DNA from: Halorussus rarus
Lineage (GTDB): Archaea; Halobacteriota; Halobacteria; Halobacteriales; Haladaptataceae
Length of the DNA: 64,000 nt
Direction of reading: 5' to 3'
Assembly: GCF_003369835.1 (NCBI RefSeq)
Contig: NZ_QPMJ01000005.1
Coordinates: forward strand, 1 to 64,000
The position numbers and the translations under genes are program-made. The notes below the pieces were generated by a model, which searched no databases, was not told where the DNA came from, and saw only the letters and a program-made list of their open reading frames with translations. Position 1 is the first letter of the stretch. Each line of letters begins with the position of its first letter. Positions 39,841-57,048 of the stretch are shown in pieces.

Positions 39841-40985
39841 TCGAACACCTCCAGCCGGTACTGCTGAGCCGGGTTGTTGGTCGTGAGCAGGTCCATCAGC
39901 TCGCTGTCGCCGCCCCGGCTCACCCGGTCGCGGTGGCGCTCGATGGTGTCGAGCGCCTCGTGGACCTGCTCGCCGAACAGCTCCTCGAGCAGCGGCCGCG
40001 GGATGCGCTCGGCGTCGATGCTCTCGCCGGTCTCGGCGTCGTGCTGGGGCGGGGCGAACGGCGGGATGTAGTAGACGTTGGGCTGGGTGTGGTAGTCGGG
40101 GTGGAGCCGGAGCGCGACCTCGTACTCGTTGACGAGCTTGTGGATGGGCCCCTGCTCGTCGTCGAGGTAGCCGACCAGCCGGAGCTGGGGCGGACACTCG
40201 GTCGCGCAGGCCGGCGGCACCGCGTCGCCGTCGTTGAGGTTGAAGTTGCCCTCGGTCTCGGCGCCCTCGCCCTCGATGCGGGGGTAGCAGAAGATGCACT
40301 TCTCCGACCGCTTGCGCATCACGTTGTAGTAGACCTTGTTGTACGGACACCCCTCGACGCAGTAGCGGTAGCCACGGCACCGCTCCTGGTCGACCAGCAC
40401 GATGCCGTCCTCTTCGCGCTTGTAGATGGCCTTTCGCGGACACGCCTCGGCGCACGAGGGATGGGTGCAGTGGTTGCAGATGCGCGGGAGATAGAAGTAG
40501 TAGGAGTTGGGGTACTCGCCCGCCCCCTGGTCCTCGTCCCAGTTGGGCCCCCACTCGGGCTCCTCGCCCTCCGGCTGGAGGGGCGCGTCGCTGCCGTCGT
40601 ACATGACCTCGGTGTGGTTGAAATTCCAGGCCCGGCCGTAGTCCTCCTGCGAGGGTATTGTGCCGTCGCCCTCCTGGTACTCGCCGTGGGCGTCTTCGTT
40701 CGCCTGCTCGGCCGACGCGTAGCCCCCGCCGTCGTCCTCCCAGCCCCGCGGGTAGCCCTGGCCGGGCTGGGTCTCGACGTTGTTCCAGTACATGTACTCG
40801 CGGCCGCCCGAGTCGGTCCAGAGCTTCTTGCAGGCGATGGTGCAGGTCTGGCAGCCCACGCACTTGTTGAGGTCCATCACCATCGCGACCTGGTGGTCGA
40901 TGCCCTCCGCGACGTCGATCTGCTGGCCCTGCCCCTGCCGTGTCGTGGTCTGCTCTTGCCGGTCTCGCTGGTTCTGGGAGCTCAT
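39837..40985 (-). CDS. narH: Respiratory nitrate reductase beta subunit NarH
   Basis: The 382-residue protein has four Cys groups for Fe-S clusters. These are CVGCQTCTIACKKLW, CNHCTHPSCAEACP, CRGYRYCVEGCPYNK and CIFCYPRIEGEG with a following CATECPPQLRL. The N-terminal 30 residues are Gln-rich and variable. It passes electrons between the gamma-subunit heme and the Mo site in NarG. It overlaps the narG stop by 4 nt. Like other beta subunits it lacks its own export signal. Confidence 0.9.
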   Translation of the reverse strand: MSSQNQRDRQEQTTTRQGQGQQIDVAEGIDHQVAMVMDLNKCVGCQTCTIACKKLWTDSGGREYMYWNNVETQPGQGYPRGWEDDGGGYASAEQANEDAHGEYQEGDGTIPSQEDYGRAWNFNHTEVMYDGSDAPLQPEGEEPEWGPNWDEDQGAGEYPNSYYFYLPRICNHCTHPSCAEACPRKAIYKREEDGIVLVDQERCRGYRYCVEGCPYNKVYYNVMRKRSEKCIFCYPRIEGEGAETEGNFNLNDGDAVPPACATECPPQLRLVGYLDDEQGPIHKLVNEYEVALRLHPDYHTQPNVYYIPPFAPPQHDAETGESIDAERIPRPLLEELFGEQVHEALDTIERHRDRVSRGGDSELMDLLTTNNPAQQYRLEVFE

Positions 40986-43900
40986 TCGGTGTCACCTCGG
41001 GAAGCGTCGTCGGCTGCGTCGAGGTCGGTCGCGTTTCCGCTCGGCGTGTCGTCCGTCGTCCCGGTCCTCCGCGTCGTCGTCTCGGTGTTCTCCGTCGTTG
41101 CTTGGTCCGCATCGGCGGTCGTCGTCTGGTCCGCGGCCGGTCCGGTCTGGTCCTGGGCGGGCGTCTCCGGGACGACATTCTGCGCCTCGTCGGCCGGTGT
41201 GACGGTCCCGGTCTCCTGGTCGGCCGACTCGTCCTCCACCAGTTCGACGTCGACGCGGACGTCGCTGTTCACCCCGGTCGGCCCCCAGTAGTTGGGAATG
41301 AACTCCAGGTGCTCGCCGGTGTCCTCGGGGTACTGCACCAGCTGGGTCGGCTTCATGTACATCCCGACGAGCGTGTTGAAGTTGCTCCGGCTCGGGAACT
41401 GGAAGCGCTCCCACGCGAAGTAGAGCTTCGCCACGCCGGGCTGGGCGCTCGGATAGATCTTGACGCCGACCTCGATCTCGTCGAGATCGTTGTACACCCG
41501 GACCGTGTCGCCGTCCTCGATGCCGCGTTCCTCGGCGTCGTCGGGGTGCATGTAGACGATGGGCTCGCCCCGCTGGAGCCGGAGCATGTGCTTGTTGTCC
41601 CGCCACGTCGAGTGGATGGACCACCGGCCGTGGGGCGTGTTGTACCGCAGCGGGTACTCCTGCTCGGCCTGGAGCACCTCCGGGTCCTTGTACGTCGGCA
41701 CCTGCTCGCCGAGGTCGAGGAACCAGTCGTGGTCGATGTAGTACTGCTGGCGGCCGGTGAACGTCGGCCACGGGTTCTTCTGCTGGACGTAGCGCTTCCA
41801 CGGGGTGTACGGCTCGCCCTCCTCCAGCGGCGAGGTCCAGTGGTCGCCCGACGCCTCGAACCGCCGGGGCTGTTCGACCGTGTCGTCGAACGTGATGCGG
41901 TTATCGCCTCCCTCCGGGTTGCTCTCCTCTGAGTGCTCGAGAATGAACTCGGCGGCGGCCTTGTCTTCCGCTAGCGCGTTCGGTTCGTCGTCCAGCCAGT
42001 TCCGGACGTAATCGTCGTGGACCGTCGTGAGGTCGATCTGGCGGTCGAACTGGCGGTCCTGGACCGGGTCCAGGTTCCGCCGTCTCGCGATCTCCTGGAC
42101 CTTCTCCGCCAGCAGCCGGAATATCTCCCAGTCGGTCTTCGACTGGCCCAGCGGCTCGATGGCCGGCGTGAACGGGTGGACGTAGCTGTGCATGTCGGTC
42201 ATGTTCAGGTCGTGCTTCTCGTAGTGGCTGGCTGCGGGGAGCACGATATCGCTGTACAGCGCGGTCGAGTCCATCCGGAAGTTGATGTCGACGATGAGGT
42301 CGAGCTTGGGCCAGAGGACGTTCTCGATGGCGATGCCGCCCTTCGACTGGTTGAAGTAGTTGCCCCGCCAGCAGAAGAAGACGCTCGGGTCCGGGCGAGA
42401 GCCGTCCTCGCGCTCCTTCGGGTAGACCGGCATCCACCCGCGGTCGATGGACTCCTGGATGCGCCGGCGGGTCTCGGGTTCGATGTTGCCGAGGAGGTCG
42501 CCGTGGTAGTAGGTCCACAGCGTCGTCGGCACGGCCCGGACGTTGCCGGTCGGGAACGAGAGCTGCTGCCAGCCCTTGTAGGTCCAGATCTTCTCCTGGC
42601 CGACGTAGTGGTCGAAGCCGGTCCCCTGTCGACCGATGTGGCCGGTGAGGGTCACGAGGAGCTGGATGGCCCGGTTGCCCAGGTCGTTGTGGTACCAGTC
42701 GTTGACGCCCTTCCCGTGGATTATCTTGCCCCGCTCGGCGTTGGCGAACTCCCGGGCGATCTGGCGGTGGGTGTCGCGGCCGACGCCGGTGAGCTCGTTG
42801 ACCCGCTGGGGGCCGTAGTTCGAGAGCTCGTCGGTGACGTGCGACCAGACCGTCCGGACCTGCACGCTGCCGCCGCCCTGCAGCGGGATCGACCGATCGA
42901 CGTTCAGTTGCGGATCGAAGTTCAGCGCGATGCTCGAATCCGGGTCGTGCTTGCCCTCACGGTTGCCCAGCGACCCCGGCGCCGCCCGGAGGTTGCCCTG
43001 CTGGTCGACCATCACGAACACCTTGCCGGCCTCGCCGTTCGTCGAGAGCCCCCGGACGTCGGCCACGCGCAGGAACTTCCCGTCGTCCTCGCGGACGAGC
43101 AGCGGCATGTCCGACTGCTCCTTGACGTGGGCCTCGTCGTAGAGGTTCTCGTCGACGATGGTCCGGGCCATCCCGAGCGCCAGCGCCGCGTCGGTGCCGG
43201 CCTGCGGCGAGAGCCACTCGTCGCAGTGGATGGCGGTCTGGGAGTAGTCGGTGAAGATACCGACCCGCTTGGTCCCGTTGTACGCGGCCTCCAGGAAGAA
43301 CTTCGCGTCCGGAATCCGGGTGACGTTGACGTTCGACCCCCACGCGATGATGTAGTCGGAGTTGTACCAGTCGGCGCTCTCGGCGTTGTCGGTCTGGGTG
43401 CCCCACGTGATCGGCTCGCCCGGCGGGAGGTCCGAGTACCAGTCGTAGAAGCTGTGGCTGACCCCGCCGATGAGGTTGACGAACCGCGACCCGGAGGCGA
43501 ACGACACCGGGCTCATCGCCGGGATGGGCGTGAACCCCGAGATGGCGTCGTAATTGCCCTGCTGGACCTCCTTGACGACCTTCTCGGCGATCTCCGTCAG
43601 CGCCTCGTCCCACGAGATGCGCTTCCACTTGCCCTCGCCGCGCTGGCCGACGCGCCTGAGCGGGTACTTGATGCGCTGCTCGGCGTTGACGTAGTCGGTG
43701 TAACACGCTCCCTTCTGGCAGCCCCGGGGGTTCGACGACGGGAGCTCGTCGTTGATAGCCGGGTAGTCGGCGGCTTGCTCCTCGCGCCAGACCTGGCCGT
43801 TCTTGACGTAGACGTTCCACGAGCAGCTACCCGTGCAGTTGACGCCGTGGGTCGACCGCGCGACCGAGTCCCAGTCCCACTTCTCCCGGTAGAAGTCCTC

Positions 43901-44107
43901 CCAGTCCCGGTAGGGGTAGTCGCCGATGTAGTCGCTACCGTCGACCTGTTCGATGCCGGTCATCTGGGTCAGGCTGTCCGCGATGGACGTCCCCGACAGG
44001 CCGAGCGCGGTCGACAGCCCCAGCCCCTTGAGGAAGCCGCGGCGACCGACGTCGCCGCTCGATTCGCCTGCGCTCTCAGCGTCCGCGTTCGATTGGTTGT
44101 CGCTCAT
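40982..44107 (-). CDS. narG: Respiratory nitrate reductase alpha subunit NarG (Tat-exported)
   Basis: The 1041-residue protein has a Tat signal (GRRGFLKGLGLSTALGLSG) at residues 21-40, so the active site faces outside, as in other archaeal pNar enzymes. The proximal cluster ligands are His87, Cys91, Cys95 and Cys130 (HGVNCTGSC, then 34 residues to PRGC). The Mo-ligand Asp lies in SFYDWYSDLPPG (Asp222), followed by WGTQTDNAESADWYNSDYI, strongly NarG-like. The last roughly 75 residues are a Thr/Asp-rich tail not needed for the fold. It reduces nitrate to nitrite with quinol-derived electrons. Confidence 0.92.
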   Translation of the reverse strand: MSDNQSNADAESAGESSGDVGRRGFLKGLGLSTALGLSGTSIADSLTQMTGIEQVDGSDYIGDYPYRDWEDFYREKWDWDSVARSTHGVNCTGSCSWNVYVKNGQVWREEQAADYPAINDELPSSNPRGCQKGACYTDYVNAEQRIKYPLRRVGQRGEGKWKRISWDEALTEIAEKVVKEVQQGNYDAISGFTPIPAMSPVSFASGSRFVNLIGGVSHSFYDWYSDLPPGEPITWGTQTDNAESADWYNSDYIIAWGSNVNVTRIPDAKFFLEAAYNGTKRVGIFTDYSQTAIHCDEWLSPQAGTDAALALGMARTIVDENLYDEAHVKEQSDMPLLVREDDGKFLRVADVRGLSTNGEAGKVFVMVDQQGNLRAAPGSLGNREGKHDPDSSIALNFDPQLNVDRSIPLQGGGSVQVRTVWSHVTDELSNYGPQRVNELTGVGRDTHRQIAREFANAERGKIIHGKGVNDWYHNDLGNRAIQLLVTLTGHIGRQGTGFDHYVGQEKIWTYKGWQQLSFPTGNVRAVPTTLWTYYHGDLLGNIEPETRRRIQESIDRGWMPVYPKEREDGSRPDPSVFFCWRGNYFNQSKGGIAIENVLWPKLDLIVDINFRMDSTALYSDIVLPAASHYEKHDLNMTDMHSYVHPFTPAIEPLGQSKTDWEIFRLLAEKVQEIARRRNLDPVQDRQFDRQIDLTTVHDDYVRNWLDDEPNALAEDKAAAEFILEHSEESNPEGGDNRITFDDTVEQPRRFEASGDHWTSPLEEGEPYTPWKRYVQQKNPWPTFTGRQQYYIDHDWFLDLGEQVPTYKDPEVLQAEQEYPLRYNTPHGRWSIHSTWRDNKHMLRLQRGEPIVYMHPDDAEERGIEDGDTVRVYNDLDEIEVGVKIYPSAQPGVAKLYFAWERFQFPSRSNFNTLVGMYMKPTQLVQYPEDTGEHLEFIPNYWGPTGVNSDVRVDVELVEDESADQETGTVTPADEAQNVVPETPAQDQTGPAADQTTTADADQATTENTETTTRRTGTTDDTPSGNATDLDAADDASRGDTE

Positions 44108-44292
44108 TGTCGTTTGCCGATGAACACTGTCGTTAGTCCGAGCACTGTTCCACAGACGCCCAGCAGCAGCCCCGCCGGCGTCGCGCCGCCGACCTCCAGG
44201 CCGGTCGCGACCAGCGCGAGGCCCGCGAGCTTCGTCGCGTAGTCGAGGAGCCGGTACGTTCGGCCGGTCACGGTCACGCGGTGGTCACTCAT
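44104..44292 (-). CDS. Small two-helix membrane protein of the nar operon
   Basis: From the ATG at 44292 ([18 protein letters not shown]) the product is 62 residues with two hydrophobic helices ([14 protein letters not shown] and [20 protein letters not shown]). It overlaps both neighbours, narC by 8 nt and narG by 4 nt. This strongly suggests a translated, coupled gene. An upstream in-frame ATG at 44310 would add six residues. It may stabilise contact between the cytochrome b and the catalytic subunits; that is inference. Confidence 0.65.
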
Positions 44293-45808
44293 CCGGACCA
44301 CCCCCGCCACCGGGGAAGTCGCTCGACTCTCCTCCCGACTCCCCCTCGGTCCCGCCCGTCGGTTCCGACTCCGTTCCGCCGGACATCTCCGCCTCGCTCT
44401 CGCCGGCCGGGTCCGTCGCGGGGTCGTCGACCTGGTCTCCCGACGCCGACCCGCCGTCGGCGGCTGTCTCGCCCCGGCCGGGCGCCTCGGTCGGACCGTT
44501 CCCCCGGAGAACGAGGTAGGTGATACCGCCGGCCACGACCGGGTAGAGCAGCACGCCGACCAGGAGCAGGGTGTTGATGGTGTCGGTCGAGACGTGGATG
44601 ACGTCCGCGAGGATGTTGTTCATCCCCGCGATGGAAGCGACCATGATGAACGTCACCGCCGCGACCCCGACCGCGGTCTGCCACGGTCGGCGGAGCGGGT
44701 CGACCGTGAAGTGGGTCGGCTCTTCCCGGTAGTCGACGAACGGCCACAGGAACACGAGGCCGAACACGATACCGGGGAGCACTATCCCGCTGAGGAACTC
44801 GGTCGAGACGTGGACGTCGGTGAACGGGACGGTGAAGCTCGTCCACGACGGCATCAGCTTCAGGAAGCCGAACACCCACATCAGGAACCAGTCGGGCATG
44901 ATGAGCGCCGGCGTGCCGGCGGGGTCGTTCGGGCCGTACTGCGCGACGTTGTGGACCGGCAGGAACCCCGCCAGCAGCGAGACGGTCGCCAGCGTCAGGA
45001 AGAACACCACGACGCTGACCGCGGCCTGGTTCGGGAACGCGGGCAGCCCGACGACGTAGGTGTCGTCGCCCCGGTCGATGGTGAGTTCGCCCGCAACGTC
45101 GCCGCTGCGGGGGCCTTCGGTGTGCTTCTGACGGATCAGGATGGCCATGTGGACCCCGATGAGCGCCATGATGGCGACCGGGATGAAGAACACGTGGAGG
45201 AAGTAGAACCGCGGCACCGTCGCGCTCGTCGGATACTGACCGCCGAACACTATCTCCGCCAGGATATCGCCGAGCAATGGCACCGACGTGGCGATGCTGT
45301 AGCCGATTCCGGTCGCGGTGCTGGCGAACTCGTCGAACGGCAGCGAGTAGCCCGTGTATGCGGCGAAGATCGCCAGCACCGCGAGGCCCCCGCCGACCAC
45401 CCAGTTGGGCTCGCGGGGGTTGCGGTACGCACCGGTGAAGAACACCCGGAGCATGTGGAGCCCGATGGAGGCCACGAAGAAGTGGGCGGCCCAGTGGTGC
45501 ATCCGCCGGAGGAACATCCCGTACGGGATGTCGTAGGTGATGTGGAGCACGCTCACGAACGCGGCGGGCAGGTCCTGGCCCTGATACTGGGCCACGCTGC
45601 CCTCGTAGGTGACCTCGGTGGTACTCGGCTCGAAGAAGAACCCGAGGAACACGCCCGTAATGACCAGCACGAAGAACGAGAACAGCGCCACCTCGCCGAG
45701 CAGAAACGAGTCCTCTGCCGGGAACGCCTTGCCGAGGAACTCGCTACCGCTGTCGAGGTCGAACCGGCCGTCGAACCAGTCGTAGATGCGATCGAACATC
45801 GTGCTCAC
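44285..45808 (-). CDS. narC: Cytochrome b (bc-complex type) of the nar operon, NarC
   Basis: The 507-residue protein is a cytochrome b/b6-plus-subunit-IV-type polytopic protein. Heme-ligand His pairs lie in [16 protein letters not shown]...GLHML and [14 protein letters not shown]...GVHMAI. The quinol-site PEWY-like motif reads MPDWFLMW. The C-terminal 85 residues are a soluble acidic Gly/Ser/Glu tail. In Haloarcula marismortui the third gene of the nar operon, narC, encodes a membrane cytochrome b of this class. Together with the preceding Rieske gene it would oxidise quinol and feed NarGH. Confidence 0.85.
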
Positions 45809-46500
45809 TCCGTTACCCCGACGGGCCCCTCAAAGTCGCCGGTGGCGATGAGATAACCGTCGCTCGACAGCGTGATCGGCAGTTGTGGCAGCGGACGGGG
45901 CGGCGGGCCGCCGACGACCGACGCGCCCTCTACCGGATTGAACTTCCCGAAGTGGCAGGGACACACCATCGTCTGGCCGTCGCGGTCCGACACCATGCAG
46001 CCGGCGTGGGTGCAGACCTTCGAGTAGGCCGCGTACCCCGAGACGGTGAACGCGAGCTGCGTCGGCTCGGCGTACTCCTCCTCGGGGTACCGGACCAGCA
46101 GCGTCGGCGCGTCCTCGAGGCCCGGCCGGGGCTCGGGAAAGACGGTTATGAAGTCGCCCATCCCCAGCGCGTTCTCGTCGATCCGGTCGCCGTCCGCGTC
46201 CACCAGCGGTACCCCGTCGGAGTAGATGGGACCGGTGTACTCGCGCTCGAACACCCGTGTCAGCCCCGCGAGCGGGGCGGCCAGGCTCCCGACCGCCGAC
46301 AGGCCGCCGATAGTGGCCAGGATCTTCGCCACGTCCCGACGGTCGAGTCCGTCGTCCTCTGCGGCCGGCGATTCGGCCCCACCGTCCGACCGGAGGGCCG
46401 CGGCCGAGTCGGCGCACGGGCAGCTCTCGCACGGGTCGTCGCTTCTCGGTCGCGTTCGGTCGTCGCCTCCGGATCGCGTCGAATCGTTGCTCTCGTCCAT
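45805..46500 (-). CDS. narB: Rieske iron-sulfur protein of the nar operon, NarB
   Basis: The 231-residue protein has a Cys-bearing acidic N-terminus ([12 protein letters not shown]), a Tat-like [15 protein letters not shown] with a hydrophobic anchor (residues about 55-80), and the Rieske cluster motifs CTHAGC and CPCHFGKF. It overlaps the narC start by 4 nt. It carries electrons from quinol oxidised by the cytochrome b. The extra N-terminal CxxCxC cluster is unusual for a Rieske protein and could bind another metal. Confidence 0.88.
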
Positions 46501-49418: not shown

Positions 49419-50462
49419 TTACTCGTCTTCGAGGTCTTCGAGTTCGTCCTCGACGTCGTCCAGTCGGTCCTCTATCCGGTCGATGTACTCCTCGATTCTG
49501 TCGTACTGCTGCTCCCAGTACTCCGTCCGCTCCTCGCGTCGCTCGCCCTCGTACTTCCGCTCGGCGTACTCGATCCGGTCCTCGATGGCGGACTGCTTCT
49601 CCTCGAGCTTGTAGAGCAGCTTCTTCAGCTTCTTCTTCTCGTACTTCAGTTTCTTGTACTTCCGGTCGTGGCTGTCCTGGTCGACGTCGGCCTCGTTCTC
49701 CTGGTCGACGTCGGCGTCGTTATCGCTGCCGTCCTGGTCGACATCGGCCTCGTTCTCCTGGTCGATGTCGGCGTCGTTGTCATCGCCGTCCTGGTCGACG
49801 TCGGCCTCGTTCTCCTGATCGACGTCAGCGTCGTTATCGCGACCATCTTGGTCAACATCTGCGTCGTTGTCCTGGTCGACGTCGGCATCGTTGTCGTCGC
49901 CGTCTTGATCGACGTCAGCATCGTTGTCCTGGTCGATGTCGGCGTCGTTGTCGTCGCCGTCCTGGTCCACATCGGCGTCGTTGTCCTGGTCGACATCGGC
50001 GTCGTTGTCGTCGCCATCTTGATCGACGTCGGCGTCGTTGTCCTGGTCGATGTCGGCGTCGTTGTCGTCGCCGTCCTGGTCGACATCGGCATCGTTGTCC
50101 TGATCGACATCTGCATCATTGTCGTCGCCGTCCTGGTCGACGTCAGCGTCGTTGTCCTGGTCGATGTCGGCGTCGTTGTCGCTGCCGTCCTGGTCGACGT
50201 CGGCCTCGTTACTCTGGCTGACGTCGGCGTCGTTACAGTCGCCGTTCTGGTCGACGTCGGCCTCGTTGTCCTGGTCGATGTCGGCGTCGTTATCTCCGCC
50301 GCTCTGGTCTATACTCGCTTCGTTGCTCTGGCTGATGTCGACCGACGACTCGCCGTCGCAGTCCTCGTCCGTCGCGTGGGCCAGCGCGCCGCCGCTCATC
50401 GCGGCGCCGACGAGCGCCGTGGCGACCAGCAGCGCGAGCAGGGTTCGTAGTGCGCGTTTCAT
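49419..50462 (-). CDS. Exported Asp-rich protein with 19-residue curlin-like repeats
   Basis: The 347-residue protein starts with a Sec signal (RALRTLLALLVATALVGAAMS, residues 3-22, cleaved near ALA-HA). Residues 40-266 are twelve tandem units of 19 residues, consensus DADVDQDNDADVDQDGDDN; ten are full-length and the ends are degenerate. Each unit fits the curlin pattern Q-x-G-x2-N-x-A-x3-Q. Residues 267-347 form a highly charged coiled coil (KYKKLKYEKKKLKKLL, then EEYIDRIEDRLDDVED). A beta-solenoid surface fibre is suggested, with Asp at nearly every outward position. DxDxDG-like phrases could alternatively bind calcium. No CsgG/CsgE-like genes are nearby. Confidence 0.7.
   Translation of the reverse strand: MKRALRTLLALLVATALVGAAMSGGALAHATDEDCDGESSVDISQSNEASIDQSGGDNDADIDQDNEADVDQNGDCNDADVSQSNEADVDQDGSDNDADIDQDNDADVDQDGDDNDADVDQDNDADVDQDGDDNDADIDQDNDADVDQDGDDNDADVDQDNDADVDQDGDDNDADIDQDNDADVDQDGDDNDADVDQDNDADVDQDGRDNDADVDQENEADVDQDGDDNDADIDQENEADVDQDGSDNDADVDQENEADVDQDSHDRKYKKLKYEKKKLKKLLYKLEEKQSAIEDRIEYAERKYEGERREERTEYWEQQYDRIEEYIDRIEDRLDDVEDELEDLEDE
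49665..50345 (-). repeat. 57-bp tandem coding repeats
   Basis: The DNA encoding residues 40-266 of the Asp-rich protein is built of about twelve 57-bp units. Copies differ mainly at third codon positions and at Val/Ile (GTC/ATC), Asp/Glu and the residue after Gly. Protein sequence is therefore more conserved than DNA, which indicates selection on the repeat. Confidence 0.8.
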
Positions 50463-50683: not shown

Positions 50684-51127
50684 ATGGCCAGCAAACGATA
50701 CGACACGCCGAACCACCCCAGATGGGACGCGCGGACGACCGAGACCCGGTCCACCGACCCGCCGTCCCGGTGGCAGTCCGGGCGCGCTCGCGCCGAGAGG
50801 CCCGCCAGTGACGCGGCGACCGGTAGTGACACGCCGCCGGCGCTGGTGACGCGCGCGGAGACGGACGACGCGCCGGTGGAACTCTCCGACGGCCCGAACT
50901 GGACCCGGATCACCGCCGAACTCCCCGACCGCTCGCTCGACGACGTCCGGATCACCGCCGCCGGGACCGCGATACGGATTCGCGCCGCGTCCCCGGCATC
51001 GTCGGACCGGTCGGACGGTATCGACCGGACGATCGCGCTCTCGGGGGCCGCGGACGCCGACGGAGCCGTGGTCGCGTACTGCGACCCGGTGCTGAGCGTC
51101 CTCGTTCCGAAGCGCGATGCCGCGTGA
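50684..51127 (+). CDS. Hsp20/alpha-crystallin-like protein
   Basis: The 147-residue protein has a disordered charged N-terminus (residues 1-65). A beta-rich domain follows: WTRITAELPDRSLDDVRITA, then AIRIRAASP, IDRTIALSG and a closing LSVLVPKRD. The order matches the alpha-crystallin fold (ELPG-like turn, strand with EIRI/IRIRA, final L-x-V-x-V/I strand). Chaperone activity is inferred. The gene has no operon partner. Confidence 0.6.
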   Translation: MASKRYDTPNHPRWDARTTETRSTDPPSRWQSGRARAERPASDAATGSDTPPALVTRAETDDAPVELSDGPNWTRITAELPDRSLDDVRITAAGTAIRIRAASPASSDRSDGIDRTIALSGAADADGAVVAYCDPVLSVLVPKRDAA

Positions 51128-51148: not shown

Positions 51149-51721
51149 TCACTTCCTGCCGCGGTCGATCGCGGTGAACTCCTCGAGCATCTCCTCGAAG
51201 CTCTCCGGCGGCACGTCGAGCCCCTCGCGGAGCTCCGTCGCCCGTCGGCGCATCCGGACGTACTCGCTGGAGTCCTCGAGCTGCTCGGGCGTCTGCTCGG
51301 ACTCGAGGACGGCCAGCTTGGCGGTGAGGGCGAACAGCTCCGAGACGGGGTCGTCGTACGACGCCGCCGCCAACTGCTGGTCGATCGCGGCGAACAGGTC
51401 CTCCCTGTCGGTGGGCTTGCAGAGGTAGTCGTCGAACGGCATGTCGACGATCTCGAAGCCGGGGTTGACCGCCGTGACCATGATGACCCGGCACTCGTAC
51501 CCCCGCTCGCGGAGCTCCCGCAGCACCTCGTCGCCGGAGAACGGCATGCGCCGGTCGAGCAGGACCACGTCGACGTCGTCGTCCATCTCCGCGAGCGCCT
51601 CCTCGCCGCCGTACGCGGTCCGCACGTCGGCGTACCGCCGGCGGAGTCGGAGCGCGTACGCGTCGGTGACCTCGGGCTCGTCGTCTACCACGAGCACCGT
51701 GGCGTCCCGGGGTTGGTCCAT
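51149..51721 (-). CDS. Response regulator with HalX domain
   Basis: From the ATG at 51721 the product is 190 residues. Receiver motifs are VLVVDDEPE, the phosphoacceptor Asp in VVLLDRRMP, VIMVTA and the Lys in YLCKPT. The C-terminal 65 residues (VSELFALTAKLAVLESEQTP, then SSEYVRMRRRATELREGLD) are a HalX domain, found only in haloarchaeal response regulators. It is divergent from the histidine kinase at 51894 and is its likely partner. Confidence 0.9.
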   Translation of the reverse strand: MDQPRDATVLVVDDEPEVTDAYALRLRRRYADVRTAYGGEEALAEMDDDVDVVLLDRRMPFSGDEVLRELRERGYECRVIMVTAVNPGFEIVDMPFDDYLCKPTDREDLFAAIDQQLAAASYDDPVSELFALTAKLAVLESEQTPEQLEDSSEYVRMRRRATELREGLDVPPESFEEMLEEFTAIDRGRK

Positions 51722-51893
51722 GGTATCAAAGGACAATGAGGGTAGGTCGCTGCCCGAGTTATACCTTTCGCGCCCCGCCGGTTCGGGCGCCCTCGACGAC
51801 GGTGAACTCGACGATAGTGGGACGCCACAGGAGGGACGACCGGGGGCGGAGACACCCGGAGCTATTAGTGTGCATTGGTAGCAGGTACCAAGA

Positions 51894-53666
51894 ATGGGGC
51901 TGAGGCTGCGGACCAAGTTCGTCGTCATCCTCGTGGCGATCACGCTCGTGCTGGGCGCGTCGGTCTACGTGACGCTGGAGTCGTACCAGCGCGACGCGGT
52001 GGCCGAGACGCGCGCGAGCGTCGACGAGACCGCCCGACTCGTCGCCGACCAGATCGACGCGTCGGTCCGCGACACCCGCGACGACGTGGGGAAGGTCGCC
52101 TCGCGACCGCGCGCGAGAGAGTTCGACGAGAGCGGCCGGTTCCTGGACGCGTTCCTGGCGAACTCGCCGTTCTACGCGGCGCAGGTCGTCGCCGCCAACG
52201 GGACGGTGGTCGCGTTCCGCGGCGACGTCTCGGCCGAACAGCGCCGGTCGGTCGTGGGCTCGGACCGCGGCGACGTCCCCTACGTCGCGCAAGCGCTCCG
52301 GGGACGGACCTACCTCGGTGACGTCCGGTACGTGGCCGAGACCGGCAAGCACGCCATCGTCTTCAGCGCGCCCATCATGCGGGGCGCCGAGGTCGAGGGC
52401 GGGCTCGTGGCCGCGATGTACCTCGACAACCAGACGGCGTTCGACCTGCTCCCGCCGCTGGAGACCAGCTCTCAGACGGTCGAGATCACCGGCAGCGGGG
52501 CGGTGCTCAGCGAGAGTCGCCGGACGTTCGGCGCGTCGGTCCGGAGTTCGGCGGTCGTCGAGTCGACCGGCTGGGAGGTGACCGTCACCAGGGACCGGAC
52601 CGCGCTCGACGCGCGGCTCCGACGGCTCGCGGCGTCCCAGGCCGCGGTGCTGGGCGTGCTGTTGCTGGCCATGGTGGGCTTCGGCTACTGGCAGTACGCC
52701 GTGAGCCTCCGACAGACCGAGCGGCTCCTCGCCGGGTTCGACAGGCTCGGCGAGGGCGACTACGACCACACGGTATCGCTGCGGGGCGGTTCCGAGTGGG
52801 AGCAGATGAGCGCCGGCTTCGACGAACTGGCGGGGACGCTGCGGGCCCGCGAGGCGGCGCTGCGCGAGCGCCAGCAGCGCCTCGAGGTCCTCTACCGCGT
52901 GCTCCAGCACAACCTGCGCAACCGGATGAGCGTCATCCTGAACTACGCGGACGTCGTGGAGGAGACGGCCGCCGACGAGGCGATGGCGAGCGCCGCCCGG
53001 ACCATCCGCGACGTCGGCTGGGAGGTCACGAGCCTGAGCCGGAAGGCCAGACAGATCCGGAACGCCATCGAGGCCGACCACGAGCGCCGGCCCATCGAGG
53101 TGACCGACCTCGTCGCCGAGGTGGTCGCCGACGTCGGCGAGGAGTACCCCGACGTCGAGGTGACCGCGTCGTTGCCCGATTCGGTTCGGGTGCTGGCGCT
53201 CCCGTCGCTGCGGCTGGCGGTCGAGAACGTCTGCGAGAACGCGTGCGAGCACAACGACAGCGCCGACCCGCGGGTCGAGGTCTCGGTCGCCACCGTCGAG
53301 CGCGACGGCGAGGGCCTGGAAGGACCAGGGAAGACGAGTGACGCGGGCGAGCAGGGGGGACTGGAACGCGCCCGGGCCGACCCGCACGACAGAGCCGGCT
53401 GGGTCAGCATCGCGGTGGCGGACAACGGCCCCGGCATCCCCGAGCAGGACCGGACCGCCATCGGCGAGGGCCGGGAGACCGACCTCGAACACGCGAGCGG
53501 GCTCGGCCTCTGGCTGACCTACTGGGTGGTCGACAACTCCGGCGGGCGGCTCCGGTTCGCCGAGAACGACCCGCGGGGCGCCGTGGTGACCCTGGAGCTA
53601 CCGCGCGCGTCACCCGACGGCGGGGCGGACGACGGGACGGCCGGCCGGGTCCGAGCCCGCGGGTAG
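51894..53666 (+). CDS. Membrane sensor histidine kinase (Cache-like sensor, HAMP)
   Basis: The 590-residue protein has a transmembrane helix at residues 9-27. An extracellular Cache-like sensor, about 28-245 (RDVPYVAQALRGRTYLGDV), is followed by a second helix (AAVLGVLLLAMVGFGYWQY), a HAMP linker and HisKA with His in VLQHNLRNRMSVILNYA. The ATPase domain has an N-box ENVCENACEHND, VADNGPGIP and GLGLWLTYWVV. Between the N-box and the DxGxG motif there is a 35-residue charged insertion. Its divergent neighbour is a HalX response regulator. Confidence 0.9.
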   Translation: MGLRLRTKFVVILVAITLVLGASVYVTLESYQRDAVAETRASVDETARLVADQIDASVRDTRDDVGKVASRPRAREFDESGRFLDAFLANSPFYAAQVVAANGTVVAFRGDVSAEQRRSVVGSDRGDVPYVAQALRGRTYLGDVRYVAETGKHAIVFSAPIMRGAEVEGGLVAAMYLDNQTAFDLLPPLETSSQTVEITGSGAVLSESRRTFGASVRSSAVVESTGWEVTVTRDRTALDARLRRLAASQAAVLGVLLLAMVGFGYWQYAVSLRQTERLLAGFDRLGEGDYDHTVSLRGGSEWEQMSAGFDELAGTLRAREAALRERQQRLEVLYRVLQHNLRNRMSVILNYADVVEETAADEAMASAARTIRDVGWEVTSLSRKARQIRNAIEADHERRPIEVTDLVAEVVADVGEEYPDVEVTASLPDSVRVLALPSLRLAVENVCENACEHNDSADPRVEVSVATVERDGEGLEGPGKTSDAGEQGGLERARADPHDRAGWVSIAVADNGPGIPEQDRTAIGEGRETDLEHASGLGLWLTYWVVDNSGGRLRFAENDPRGAVVTLELPRASPDGGADDGTAGRVRARG

Positions 53667-55307
53667 CGTCCGGGCCGACGATAGCGTCCGGTCCGGCGGT
53701 TCACCGACTGTCGCTCCTCCGCGCGAAGCCGACTCGTTCGTCGTGGTTCCCGGGCTGACCGTGACGTTCCCGGCGAACCGGTCGTTGACGTACAGCGCGT
53801 AGGTGCCCGGGTCGTCGAACGACTCGACGAACACCGTCTGGCGGGTGCCGTTGGGCGCGATGGAGAGCTCCCGGCGGTCGACCACGGCGTCTCCGCTGAG
53901 GAGCTTCACGACGTAGGTGCCGTCGGCGCCGCCGACGTTTGTCACCCGGACCAGGACCTCCGTGTCGTCGCCGGTGCGGATCTCGGTGACGCGCACGACC
54001 GCGTCGTCGATCTGGAACTTGGCCTGCTTGATGCCGGTCGCGAAGTCCGCCAGCCCCGTCGCCCGCGCCTCGTAGAAGTAGTGTGTGGGGCCCTCGTCGA
54101 CGAGCTGGGTCGGGAGTTCGGTCCACGTGCCGTTCTGCCGGGTGTAGAGGGTGACGTCCTCCGGTCCCGTCTCGTTCCCGGCCAGCTGGTCCTTGCGGAC
54201 GCGGAAGACGACGCTGACGTTCCGGAGGTCCTCGTCGGGGATGGTGCTGTTCATCGAGACGAACGCCGCGTCCTCGGTCCCGTCGTCCGGGTCGAACGGC
54301 GGCGTCCCCTCGAGCCGCTGGGTGCTTTTCGTCACGTTCAGCGTGAAGTTCTCGGTGCGCTCGGGGGTGAACGCGATGGAGTCGATCGCCACCGCGTCGT
54401 CGCGAGTGAGCGGCCACGAGACGTTCACCGACTGGGAGACGTTCGCCTGGACGTCCGTGACCGACACGTTCACGATGGTCCGGTCGGCCAGCACGGTCGA
54501 GGGCGAGACGTCGGCCACCATCGGCGTGTTCGTCAGCCAGACGTTGCGCTGGGGCTCGTCGGGGTCGTCGCTCATGACGTGGAGCGTCGCGAACCGCGAC
54601 CCCGATTCCGGCGGGTCGAACGTCACCGCGACGGTCCGGCTCCGGTCGGGTCCAATCGTGAACGGCCCCGCGTCGGCCACCTCGAAGGCGGTCCGGTCCG
54701 GACCGACGACGCTGACTGCCCGGACCGTCAGCGGCGCGTTCCCCTCGTTGGTCAGGGTGAGCGTCTCGGTGACCGGCCCGTCCGTCGCGTTCTCGAACCG
54801 GAGCGTCTCCGGTCGGACTTCCACGTCCGGCGCGAGCCCCGTCCCGCGGAGGTCGGCCGCGACCGCGTCGCCGTCGTCGGTCTCGACCCGGAGCGTCGCC
54901 GTCGCCGTCCCCGCCGACGCCGGCGCGAACGCGACCGCGATCACCCGGCTCTCGCCGGGTTCGAGCGTCCCCGGTCCGCCGCCCCGCAGCGTCTCGAACG
55001 CCGCGGCGTCCGGTCCCGCGACGGTCGTCTCCTCGATGGCGACCGGAGCGTCCCCCGCGTTGGTGACCGTGAGGAGTCGGGGAATCCGGTCGGTCGACGG
55101 CCCGCCGACCCGGACGCGCCCGAACTCGACGGCCTCCGGAGTCAGTTCGAGGTCGGACGCCTGGGCCGGACGGGCCGCGTCGGCGCGGCTCTCGGGCGGT
55201 CGGAGCGCGGCGGCAGGGACGACTACCGTCGAGACGACCGCGAGACACAGCAGCACCGCCATCGCGCTCCTCGCCCCTATTGTGGTAATCGGTATCATAC
55301 CACTCAT
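53610..55307 (-). CDS. Exported surface protein with ASH-like repeats and PGF-pre-PGF domain
   Basis: The 565-residue protein has a Sec signal (residues 10-36). Two choice-of-anchor-D/ASH-like immunoglobulin domains follow (VEFGRVRVGG...ITVTNAGDAPVAI and LRFENATDGPV...LTNEGNAPLTVRAV), then a PGF-pre-PGF-like domain (STIPDEDLRNVSVVFRVRK, then GTWTELPTQLVDEG), and a CARDB-like domain near the C-terminus. NVS/NVT sequons are frequent, as in glycosylated S-layer proteins. No PGF-CTERM motif or final membrane helix is present. The 3' end overlaps the histidine kinase gene by 57 bp, convergently. Confidence 0.75.
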   Translation of the reverse strand: MSGMIPITTIGARSAMAVLLCLAVVSTVVVPAAALRPPESRADAARPAQASDLELTPEAVEFGRVRVGGPSTDRIPRLLTVTNAGDAPVAIEETTVAGPDAAAFETLRGGGPGTLEPGESRVIAVAFAPASAGTATATLRVETDDGDAVAADLRGTGLAPDVEVRPETLRFENATDGPVTETLTLTNEGNAPLTVRAVSVVGPDRTAFEVADAGPFTIGPDRSRTVAVTFDPPESGSRFATLHVMSDDPDEPQRNVWLTNTPMVADVSPSTVLADRTIVNVSVTDVQANVSQSVNVSWPLTRDDAVAIDSIAFTPERTENFTLNVTKSTQRLEGTPPFDPDDGTEDAAFVSMNSTIPDEDLRNVSVVFRVRKDQLAGNETGPEDVTLYTRQNGTWTELPTQLVDEGPTHYFYEARATGLADFATGIKQAKFQIDDAVVRVTEIRTGDDTEVLVRVTNVGGADGTYVVKLLSGDAVVDRRELSIAPNGTRQTVFVESFDDPGTYALYVNDRFAGNVTVSPGTTTNESASRGGATVGEPPDRTLSSARTLPAGSDPAGRPVVRPAVG

Positions 55308-55443
55308 TTCGGGCTACGACAACCCCCGTCTTGTAGATACGGATGTCTCGGATTTCCGGTAGCAGGAGGTCGCCTCCGTACCGACGGTCCGGACGGACAT
55401 GGGGTGGCGAAGATTCACGTGGAGGTGTGTGGTATCGTATGGC

Positions 55444-57048
55444 ATGGAAGTCGTCATCGACAACGTGACCGACGGGGTAGTGGTCGTCGACGCCGACCTC
55501 CGGGTCACGTCGGCGAACGCCGTGGCGGCCGACCTCCTCGGGACCGACGCGGCGGCGCTCGTCGGAGCCGACCTCAGGGAGGCGTTCCCGCGGTCGGCGG
55601 CGGCGACGTTCCGCGAGCACTTCGGCGGAGAGGACCCGAAGCACGCGGAGGTCGCCTTCGAGGAGTACTTTCCGGACCTCGAGGCGTGGCTGGCCGTCAG
55701 GACGGTCGCGGCCGAGGAGGAGCTCGCGGTGTACCTCCGGGACGTCACCGACCGGAGGCGCCTCGAACGGGAGCTCGACGACCGCGAGCGGGAGCTGGTC
55801 CGACTCGGTCGGAACAACGCCATCGTCCAGCGCATCGTCCGGGACCTCGTCGGAGCGACGACCCGCGAGGAGATCGAACGGACGGTCTGCGAGCGGCTGT
55901 CGTCGAGCGACCGGTACGAGTTCGCCTGGATCGGCGAACTCGGGACGGGCGACGACGCGATCGCGCGGCGGGTCGCGGCCGGCGAGTACGAGGGCATCCT
56001 CGACCTCGTCGCCGAGGAGCGCGGCGACGCCGCGCCGGTCGGGCCCGAGCGCGCGGCCGTCGAGACGGGCGAGACGCAGGTCGTCGGACAGCTGGTCGAC
56101 GACGAGTCGGTGCCCGAGCCGGTCCGGCGCGAGGCGTTCGCGCGCGGGGTGCAGTCCAGCATCGCCGTGCCGCTCCGGTACGGCGGCACCACGTTCGGCG
56201 TCCTCGGCGTCTACGCGACCCGCCCGGACGCGTTCACCGACCGCGAACGCGGGAGCCTGGAGACGCTCGGCGTGGCCGTCGGATTCGCCATTAACGCGGC
56301 GCGCCAGCGCACCCTCCTGCTGTCGGACGCGGTGGTCGAACTCGCGTTCGACGTGACCGACTCGACGGCGTTCTTCGCGTCGGCCTCGGCCCGGCTCGAC
56401 TGCGAGATCGCCCTCGAGGGCATCGTCCCGCTGGACGAGCGCTCGCTGCTCGGGTACGTCCGGGTCGAGGGGGCGGCCCCGACGGACCTACACGACCTGG
56501 CCGCTGACCGAGCCGAGGTCGACGTCGGTCGCGTCGTCCACGAAGCCCCGGAGGAGGCCGGCGGGCTCGTCGAGGTCACGCTGTCGGGCGGGTCGCCGGT
56601 CCTCGTGCTGGTCGAGCGCGGCGCGACCGTCCGGACCGCCGAGTTCGACCGGGGCGCCGGGCGCGTCGTCGCGGAGATCGGAATCGGAGAGGACGTCCGG
56701 GAGATCGTCGAGGCCCTCGGTGAGGCGTTTCCGGCGTCCGAGCTCCGCTCGAAGCGCGAGCGCGAGCGGTCGGTCGAGACCGCCCAGGAGTTCCGGAGCG
56801 CGCTCCGCGAACGGCTCACCGACCGCCAGCGCGTCGCGCTCCGGACCGCGTACGTCGGCGGGTACTTCGAGTCGCCCCGAGACAGCACCGCCGAGGAGAT
56901 CGCCGCGGCGCTCGACGTCACCTCGCCCACGCTCCACTACCACCTCCGGGCGGGACAGCGCAAGCTGCTCGATGCCTTCTTCGACGACGAGGCGACGGTC
57001 GAACGACTCTCGGACGTCGACGAGTGGCGCGCGAGGACCGGCGAATGA
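55444..57048 (+). CDS. PAS-GAF-Bat HTH transcriptional regulator
   Basis: The ATG at 55444 (MEVVIDNVTDGVVVVDAD) starts a PAS domain directly; an ATG at 55399 would add 15 residues. Total length is 534. PAS spans residues 1-100, a coiled stretch follows, then a GAF domain at about 135-290 (SIAVPLRYGGTTFGVLGVYA). The Bat core follows at about 295-460, and the C-terminal HTH_10 at about 465-525 (LTDRQRVALRTAYVGGYF, then TSPTLHYHLRAGQRKLLD). These proteins are one-component sensors of light, redox or metabolites. It overlaps the next kinase gene by 4 nt. Confidence 0.85.
   Translation: MEVVIDNVTDGVVVVDADLRVTSANAVAADLLGTDAAALVGADLREAFPRSAAATFREHFGGEDPKHAEVAFEEYFPDLEAWLAVRTVAAEEELAVYLRDVTDRRRLERELDDRERELVRLGRNNAIVQRIVRDLVGATTREEIERTVCERLSSSDRYEFAWIGELGTGDDAIARRVAAGEYEGILDLVAEERGDAAPVGPERAAVETGETQVVGQLVDDESVPEPVRREAFARGVQSSIAVPLRYGGTTFGVLGVYATRPDAFTDRERGSLETLGVAVGFAINAARQRTLLLSDAVVELAFDVTDSTAFFASASARLDCEIALEGIVPLDERSLLGYVRVEGAAPTDLHDLAADRAEVDVGRVVHEAPEEAGGLVEVTLSGGSPVLVLVERGATVRTAEFDRGAGRVVAEIGIGEDVREIVEALGEAFPASELRSKRERERSVETAQEFRSALRERLTDRQRVALRTAYVGGYFESPRDSTAEEIAAALDVTSPTLHYHLRAGQRKLLDAFFDDEATVERLSDVDEWRARTGE

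Follow-up and report, generated by a model that had tools for sequence, protein, structure and literature searches.

Among the functional amyloids of bacteria, curli serve as the model. The published mean length of a curlin repeat is 23 ± 5 residues, and curli are reported to be left-handed by cryo-EM and to be drawn right-handed by AlphaFold (PMC10192328). End-to-end stacking of subunits has been reported for CsgA and for R15.5, an acidic curlin (pI 2.98) that makes fibres with or without Ca, the ion bundling them or coating them with mineral (PMC10192328). A solenoid of another kind, Ca-bound, right-handed and RTX-like, with the consensus xGTGNDxuxuGGxuxGxux, forms region IV (RIV) of the 1.5-MDa Marinomonas adhesin MpAFP (PMC3492233). 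As far as the accessible parts of PMC12520557 and PMC4180959 go, the archaeal extracellular proteins of amyloid type include the MspA sheath of Methanosaeta/Methanospirillum; the same parts state that Haloferax biofilms bind amyloid dyes and give HVO_1403 as an unconfirmed candidate.

Here we describe a gene in a 64,000-nucleotide stretch of Halorussus rarus DNA (the window, that is, the whole stretch analysed). On our best reading overall, which we consider probable, it encodes a Sec-exported archaeal curlin whose fibres would form outside the cell and bind cations through Asp grids on either face. No archaeal or haloarchaeal curlin was found described in the open-access literature searched; an automatic Curlin_rpt annotation of this protein likely exists in databases.

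Gene and repeat architecture

The limits of the open reading frame were confirmed as exactly 49419-50462 on the minus strand (Table 1). The relatives carry MKRTLRITVALV where the window curlin has its N-terminus MKRALRTLLALL, an alignment that confirms the start codon. The Sec-type signal, MKRALRTLLALLVATALVGAAMSGGALA, was called by inspection of the sequence and by its conservation in homologues, and cleavage would follow A-L-A.

Table 1. Features of the curlin gene and its neighbourhood (window coordinates)
Feature	Position	Strand	Evidence
Archaeal curlin gene (probable), 347 aa	49419..50462	-	ORF, ATG start; Pfam PF07012 159.4 bits
Sec-type signal peptide (predicted), residues 1-28	50379..50462	-	KR n-region, hydrophobic core, small-x-small; homologues keep signal
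Twelve 19-residue curlin units, residues 39-262	49677..50348	-	Motif and turn counts; AlphaFold strands
Charged C-terminal tail, residues 264-347	49422..49673	-	AlphaFold; charge pattern; heptad score
Response regulator, HalX domain	51149..51793	-	Pfam; 71-74% identical to copy near Haloterrigena curlin
Membrane histidine kinase, extracytoplasmic sensor	51894..53666	+	HATPase_c E 3e-13; dCache_1 weak, below cut-off
Exported protein, two ASH/HYDIN-type Ig domains, adjoins kinase	53610..55307	-	Pfam
Bat-type regulator (PAS, GAF, BAT, HTH_10)	55399..57048	+	Pfam; ~65% identical to Haloterrigena copy

The protein contains 24 strand motifs N-x-A-x-[VI]-x-Q, one of them starting with S, and the turns between strands alternate between one residue (12 times) and four residues of the form X-G-X-X (11 times, each with an invariant Gly); the strands therefore make up twelve 19-residue units. 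In the DNA, TRF reports a 57-nt array of 11.3 copies (49665-50309, score 840). Across the eleven complete units N, A, Q and G never vary, and Asp fills most of the remaining positions; these counts bear out a preliminary description of the locus, which had read the protein as twelve curlin-pattern units of 19 residues made largely of Asp elsewhere. Asp and Glu account for 44% of the window curlin and 46.5% of the repeat region (about 226 residues, net charge -104), which is followed by a charged tail counted as 82 residues; the mature chain carries a net charge of -118.

Between units the median dN (0.09) is far below the median dS (0.62), a dS that over 19 codons is rough and is saturated or unusable in 17 of the 55 unit pairs. 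As synonymous divergence greatly exceeds protein divergence, the units are old copies under constraint at the protein level; the codon divergence with conserved protein repeats that had been pointed out earlier is thus real.

Membership in the curlin family

The protein matches the Pfam Curlin_rpt profile (PF07012) with 159.4 bits (E 1.8e-47, 13 stretches; cut-off 20.7). The repeat region alone scores 167.8 bits and the Haloterrigena homologue 154.8 bits. Because the composition of the window curlin is extreme, six composition-matched controls were run, comprising two full shuffles and four versions that each applied a single permutation of the 19 positions to every unit, so that composition and periodicity were kept; none of the six gave a Pfam match at E<=1. 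A low-complexity artefact is rejected, since the match vanishes in shuffle and permutation controls alike. Matches to NCBIfam serine-aspartate MSCRAMM models (E 2e-7 to 2e-3) reached 16-29 bits against cut-offs of at least 999 and were dismissed as matches of composition.

Solved curlins were recovered as well. The window curlin matched the sequence of PDB 8c50 at E 7e-36, and a profile of archaeal and bacterial rows, two bacterial curlins included, retrieved just two PDB sequences below E 0.1: that of the curlin fibre subunit 8c50 (E 5e-56) and that of the major curlin subunit 8enq (E 9e-8). The Haloterrigena homologue, less biased in composition, is 39-41% identical to E. coli CsgB (E 1e-5 to 1e-6). 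The NCBIfam models of CsgB and CsgA gave 92.5 and 70.7 bits, both under their cut-offs (165 and 160). Assignment to the Curlin repeat family PF07012 follows from the profile and from the N-x-psi-x-psi-x-Q strands with X-G-X-X turns; the 19-residue unit falls within the published spread of curlin repeats, and its second turn is a single residue, unlike those of the sampled bacterial curlins. We conclude with high confidence that the protein is a curlin relative. The curlin-type repeats proposed in the preliminary description are upheld by profile, homologue and structure evidence, and the HMM search it had called for gave a match of 159.4 bits, not the disordered linker without curlin similarity that would have spoken against it.

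Homologues and conservation

Clear curlins were found in five of 391 genomes of the class: the window genome and four genomes of another genus of the same order (g64), Haloterrigena salina JCM 13891 among them. In the window's own genus the window genome alone has a clear curlin (the weak match seen in G384 belongs to an acidic protein with a different pattern), and no further ones were found in 125 genomes of the g64 family or in 295 genomes sampled from the phylum. A scan of genome contigs returned H. salina as its sole archaeal curlin match.

When the two genera are compared, identity reaches 90-91% at the inward positions (N, A, V/I, Q), the remainder being mostly Val/Ile exchanges; it is 51-58% at outward positions, 24-30% in the four-residue turns (80-91% for the turn Gly) and ~10% in the single-residue turn, which is Asp or Glu in the window curlin and mostly Arg in g64. 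Such conservation of inward over outward positions is what would be expected for the curlin solenoid of PMC10192328. The turn Asps of the window curlin are replaced in homologues by Lys, Asn, Tyr, His or Cys.

All five archaeal curlins have alternating 4/1 turns and 19-residue repeats, and the sampled bacterial curlins mostly 4/4 or 4/5 turns and repeats of 22-23 residues. When sub-ranges covering 24 strands were aligned in register, each second archaeal turn was 3 residues shorter than in the bacterial rows. The one-residue turn has no record for curlins in the literature compared, and we count this against our best reading.

The faces of the predicted solenoid differ in charge among these proteins. 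Both are 97% acidic in the window curlin. One face is 81-90% acidic in the Haloterrigena curlins and the other 22-33%, with Lys, Arg, Phe and Gly; in the Lutibacter and Pontibacter curlins one face is 85% and 52% acidic, respectively, and the other 6%. The bacterial acidic curlins, too, thus have a carboxylate grid on one face, and the two-sided grid is special to the window curlin. The g64 homologues contain 22-24% D+E, compared with 44% in the window curlin. Since another halophilic genus keeps the fold positions at this level, the extreme Asp coat is specific to the window curlin and is no requirement of brine. The earlier suggestion that a curli-like solenoid had been adapted to saturated salt is therefore only partly supported, the halophilic relatives being half as acidic, and is insufficient to explain the coat.

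Other exported repeat proteins were seen in the haloarchaea. In another family of the order, L054:8471-9136 (G380) encodes a Q-rich protein of ~21-residue units (for example NDADQEQKNDQRQGVSQEGDR) with no Pfam match; the repeat keeps the X-G-X-X turn and N-x-A with an extra core Gln, and may form a Gln-core curlin-like solenoid. Two adjacent genes of G384, in the window's genus (L028:7903-8352 and L028:8750-10780), encode exported proteins of 149 and 676 aa rich in D, E, Q, N and S, with QDADAEADQ-type repeats and almost no Lys or Arg, the larger one without a Pfam match. A small exported protein of G242 (L055:7856-8323) has three long Gln/His-rich repeats (QQQQDVDQ...DVDLEQNNDNHQHQHG) and possibly binds metal. 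The IMG/VR scan gave one viral contig (L100:5007-5528) with the acidic repeat DQSNEADVDQSNEDGD, which resembles the window repeat in its letters and differs in period, and is not a clear curlin.

Predicted structure

AlphaFold was run on the mature chain with seven in-register sequences, two bacterial curlins among them, and the model therefore leans on the curlin family. It consists of alternating strands of 6-8 residues over most repeats, followed by a two-helix tail (mean pLDDT 73; block means 72-84 in the middle of the repeats, lower at both ends). Strands and a helical hairpin, rather than a disordered linker, are thus what the structure prediction proposed earlier returned, and on this model the repeats are predicted to fold as a two-sheet beta-solenoid, which we consider likely. 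Foldseek with the window model gave no match at E<=0.001, and solved curlins were not among the matches listed, which is uninformative either way. For the Haloterrigena homologue, modelled from 5 sequences, a mean pLDDT of 58 made the model too weak to use; Foldseek gave no significant match for it either, and its fold matches are generic beta-helices.

By VIA-align the best solved match was 3p4g (Z 21.6, rmsd 2.8 over 228 residues; next row 14.7). Judged from this match, the window model appears right-handed, a point against our best reading given the left-handedness reported for curli. The match does establish that coils of 19 residues can physically exist with turns of unequal length, one long and the other short.

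The tail helices, ~40 residues each with a short turn between them, carry net charges of +7 (264-303) and -14 (307-346), and their ends are complementary in charge when paired antiparallel. The heptad score was equalled by 3 of 1000 shuffles. The tail matched no Pfam family and is absent from the homologues, a search of 28 family genomes recovering the window tail alone. What had been described as a charged coiled-coil tail is indeed a charged tail, with the predicted form of an antiparallel helical hairpin.

Export and assembly

CsgG was not found in a genome-wide search of the window genome, in which control genomes were positive, and we therefore speak of a curlin-repeat protein and not of a csg curli system; the preliminary description had likewise seen no curli secretion genes nearby, and none are. 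Archaeal cells of this group have no outer membrane, so a CsgG channel is unneeded and the Sec signal should suffice. Export, which that description had also claimed, is supported by the signal and its retention in homologues, and seems to us highly likely.

In the mechanism that we propose, the precursor would leave the cell through the Sec pathway and its twelve 19-residue units would fold outside into a two-sheet beta-solenoid, with a predicted core ladder of Asn, Ala, Val/Ile and Gln. Each coil would have one X-G-X-X turn and one turn cut to a single residue. By analogy with curli, subunits would stack end to end via their open sheets into surface or matrix fibres, and the charge-paired C-terminal helical hairpin probably caps or anchors one end. 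With Asp at nearly every outward position, each side would carry a regular grid of carboxylates; such grids should bind brine cations and keep the fibres in solution, and through them divalent ions could bridge or coat the fibres. That the subunits form extracellular fibres is, on this analogy, somewhat favoured. Given the net charge of the mature chain (-118), stacking must overcome strong repulsion unless it is screened; neither a minor subunit nor a chaperone was identified, which counts against fibres.

Genomic neighbourhood

About 0.7 kb from the curlin gene lies the HalX regulator, followed by the divergent membrane kinase, the ASH/Ig exported protein and the Bat-type regulator. A matching kinase/regulator cassette lies within 6 kb of the curlin gene in all five genomes, and its kinases form one clade. 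The four Haloterrigena genomes have regulator, kinase and Bat near the curlin in rearranged order, with the regulator ~5.5 kb away. With the Haloterrigena copies the window kinase shares 64-65% identity, as against 43-46% with the closest kinases in its own genus. In the tree it is the sister of the Haloterrigena kinases (support 0.996), and three genomes of a third family form the nearest outgroup. These three have the cassette without a curlin, and a cassette serving the curlin alone is accordingly rejected; in such curlin-less genomes the ASH/HYDIN protein, too, belongs to the cassette. The simplest history is that the curlin joined the cassette before the cassette moved between families. 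The kinase/HalX regulator/Bat cassette may control curlin expression in the proposed mechanism, though, judged from clustering only, we entertain this with some doubt.

Kinases of this type are found beside an ASH-type protein elsewhere too, both in the window's genus and in three genomes of another family. A 147-aa open reading frame (50684-51127, plus strand) situated between the curlin and regulator genes has no Pfam match at E 0.01, and ~3 kb from the curlin, at 40982-46500 on the minus strand, inspection points to a nitrate reductase alpha subunit, a cytochrome b and a Rieske protein. After the Haloterrigena curlin come genes for a 258-aa membrane or exported protein and a protein of 175-179 aa without a Pfam family (L024:7181-7954 and L024:6462-6986, minus strand); they were not seen beside the window curlin and are candidate accessory parts.

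Discussion

The main competitor of an extracellular curlin fibre is a monomeric solenoid folded by calcium or salt, like the 19-residue repeats in region IV of the Marinomonas ice-binding adhesin MpAFP: acidic repeats would stay unfolded inside the cell and, once ions occupy the turns outside, fold into a stiff rod or a ligand-binding surface that the helical tail anchors or caps. The coils agree in length, with one long and one short turn in both, the D-G-D-D-N turn is rich in Asp, and 3p4g was by far the best structural match (Z 21.6 against 14.7). That match, however, would be inflated by AlphaFold's reported right-handed drawing of curlins, which cryo-EM is said to contradict, and the sequence profile does not find 3p4g. 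Searches of Pfam at E up to 10 gave no dockerin, EF-hand, thrombospondin type 3 or RTX family, identities that we reject, and homologues keep the curlin core positions instead of the turn Asps. The calcium alternative of the preliminary description thus gains a Ca-bound structural match and lacks a calcium family and conserved turn Asps; we judge it unlikely.

A curlin fold of the repeats would be dispensable if the protein were a disordered acidic polyelectrolyte acting as cation sponge, spacer or mineral-nucleating coat. Its composition would suit that role (46.5% D+E and a net charge of -104 over 226 residues), and the related genome with the L028 genes secretes acidic Q/N-rich proteins without clear curlin repeats. 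Yet buried-type residues recur with a strict two-residue periodicity, inward positions are conserved across genera, the Pfam match is lost on shuffling and strands are predicted, so that we give this explanation very little weight. Whether the N-D-A-D-V-D-Q unit arose by convergence or internal amplification, with no descent shared with bacterial curlins, is a matter of origin and is compatible with the mechanism proposed here. Convergence comes easily to short low-complexity repeats, the sampled bacterial curlins differ in turn pattern from the 4/1 seen here, and Q-rich repeats with other periods occur in further haloarchaea (L054, L055); the profile match to CsgB and curlin subunits nevertheless spans the X-G-X-X turn, the flanking Gln/Asn and the small/hydrophobic core, and separate origin appears quite improbable.

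The Sec-exported curlin that we prefer suggests that curli-like fibres exist also in brine archaea without the bacterial curli export gate. More tentatively, the locus may represent a csg-independent archaeal curli system, with export by Sec alone, a compact coil of 19 residues in which one turn is a single residue, carboxylate grids on two faces for brine, linked two-component control and a history in which the locus as a whole passed between haloarchaeal families. If true, the case would show how small a curlin unit can be, would tell whether curli can do without dedicated export machinery when they assemble in molar salt, and would provide a defined candidate for an archaeal matrix amyloid and a charged fibre material.

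Comparison with known systems

MspA and HVO_1403 are set apart from the window curlin by their descriptions, which in the accessible parts of these sources do not present them as curlins. MpAFP region IV (PDB 3p4g; PMC3492233) shares with the medium-confidence window model a coil of 19 residues and the alternation of a long with a short turn, and differs in its core residues, in its Gly-rich Ca turns and in having no sequence match to the window curlin. With E. coli CsgA/CsgB (PDB 8enq; NCBIfam NF007470, NF007506) the repeat motif is shared; E. coli curli differ in their longer coil, in their CsgG and csg operon, of which the window genome showed no CsgG, and in the N22 segment for CsgG targeting, no counterpart of which was recognised in the window curlin, and one CsgA motif has bulky core residues, unlike the window curlin (PMC10192328). 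The bacterial R15.5 of Pontibacter korlensis (PDB 8c50; PMC10192328) has longer repeats with turns of 4 and about 5 residues, compared with 19 residues and turns of 4 and 1, contains 20% D/E compared with 44%, and has no known helical tail. Like the window curlin it is acidic, with the string NDADVDQDG, N-x-psi-x-psi-x-Q strands and the X-G-X-X turn, and one of its faces is likewise an Asp/Glu grid.
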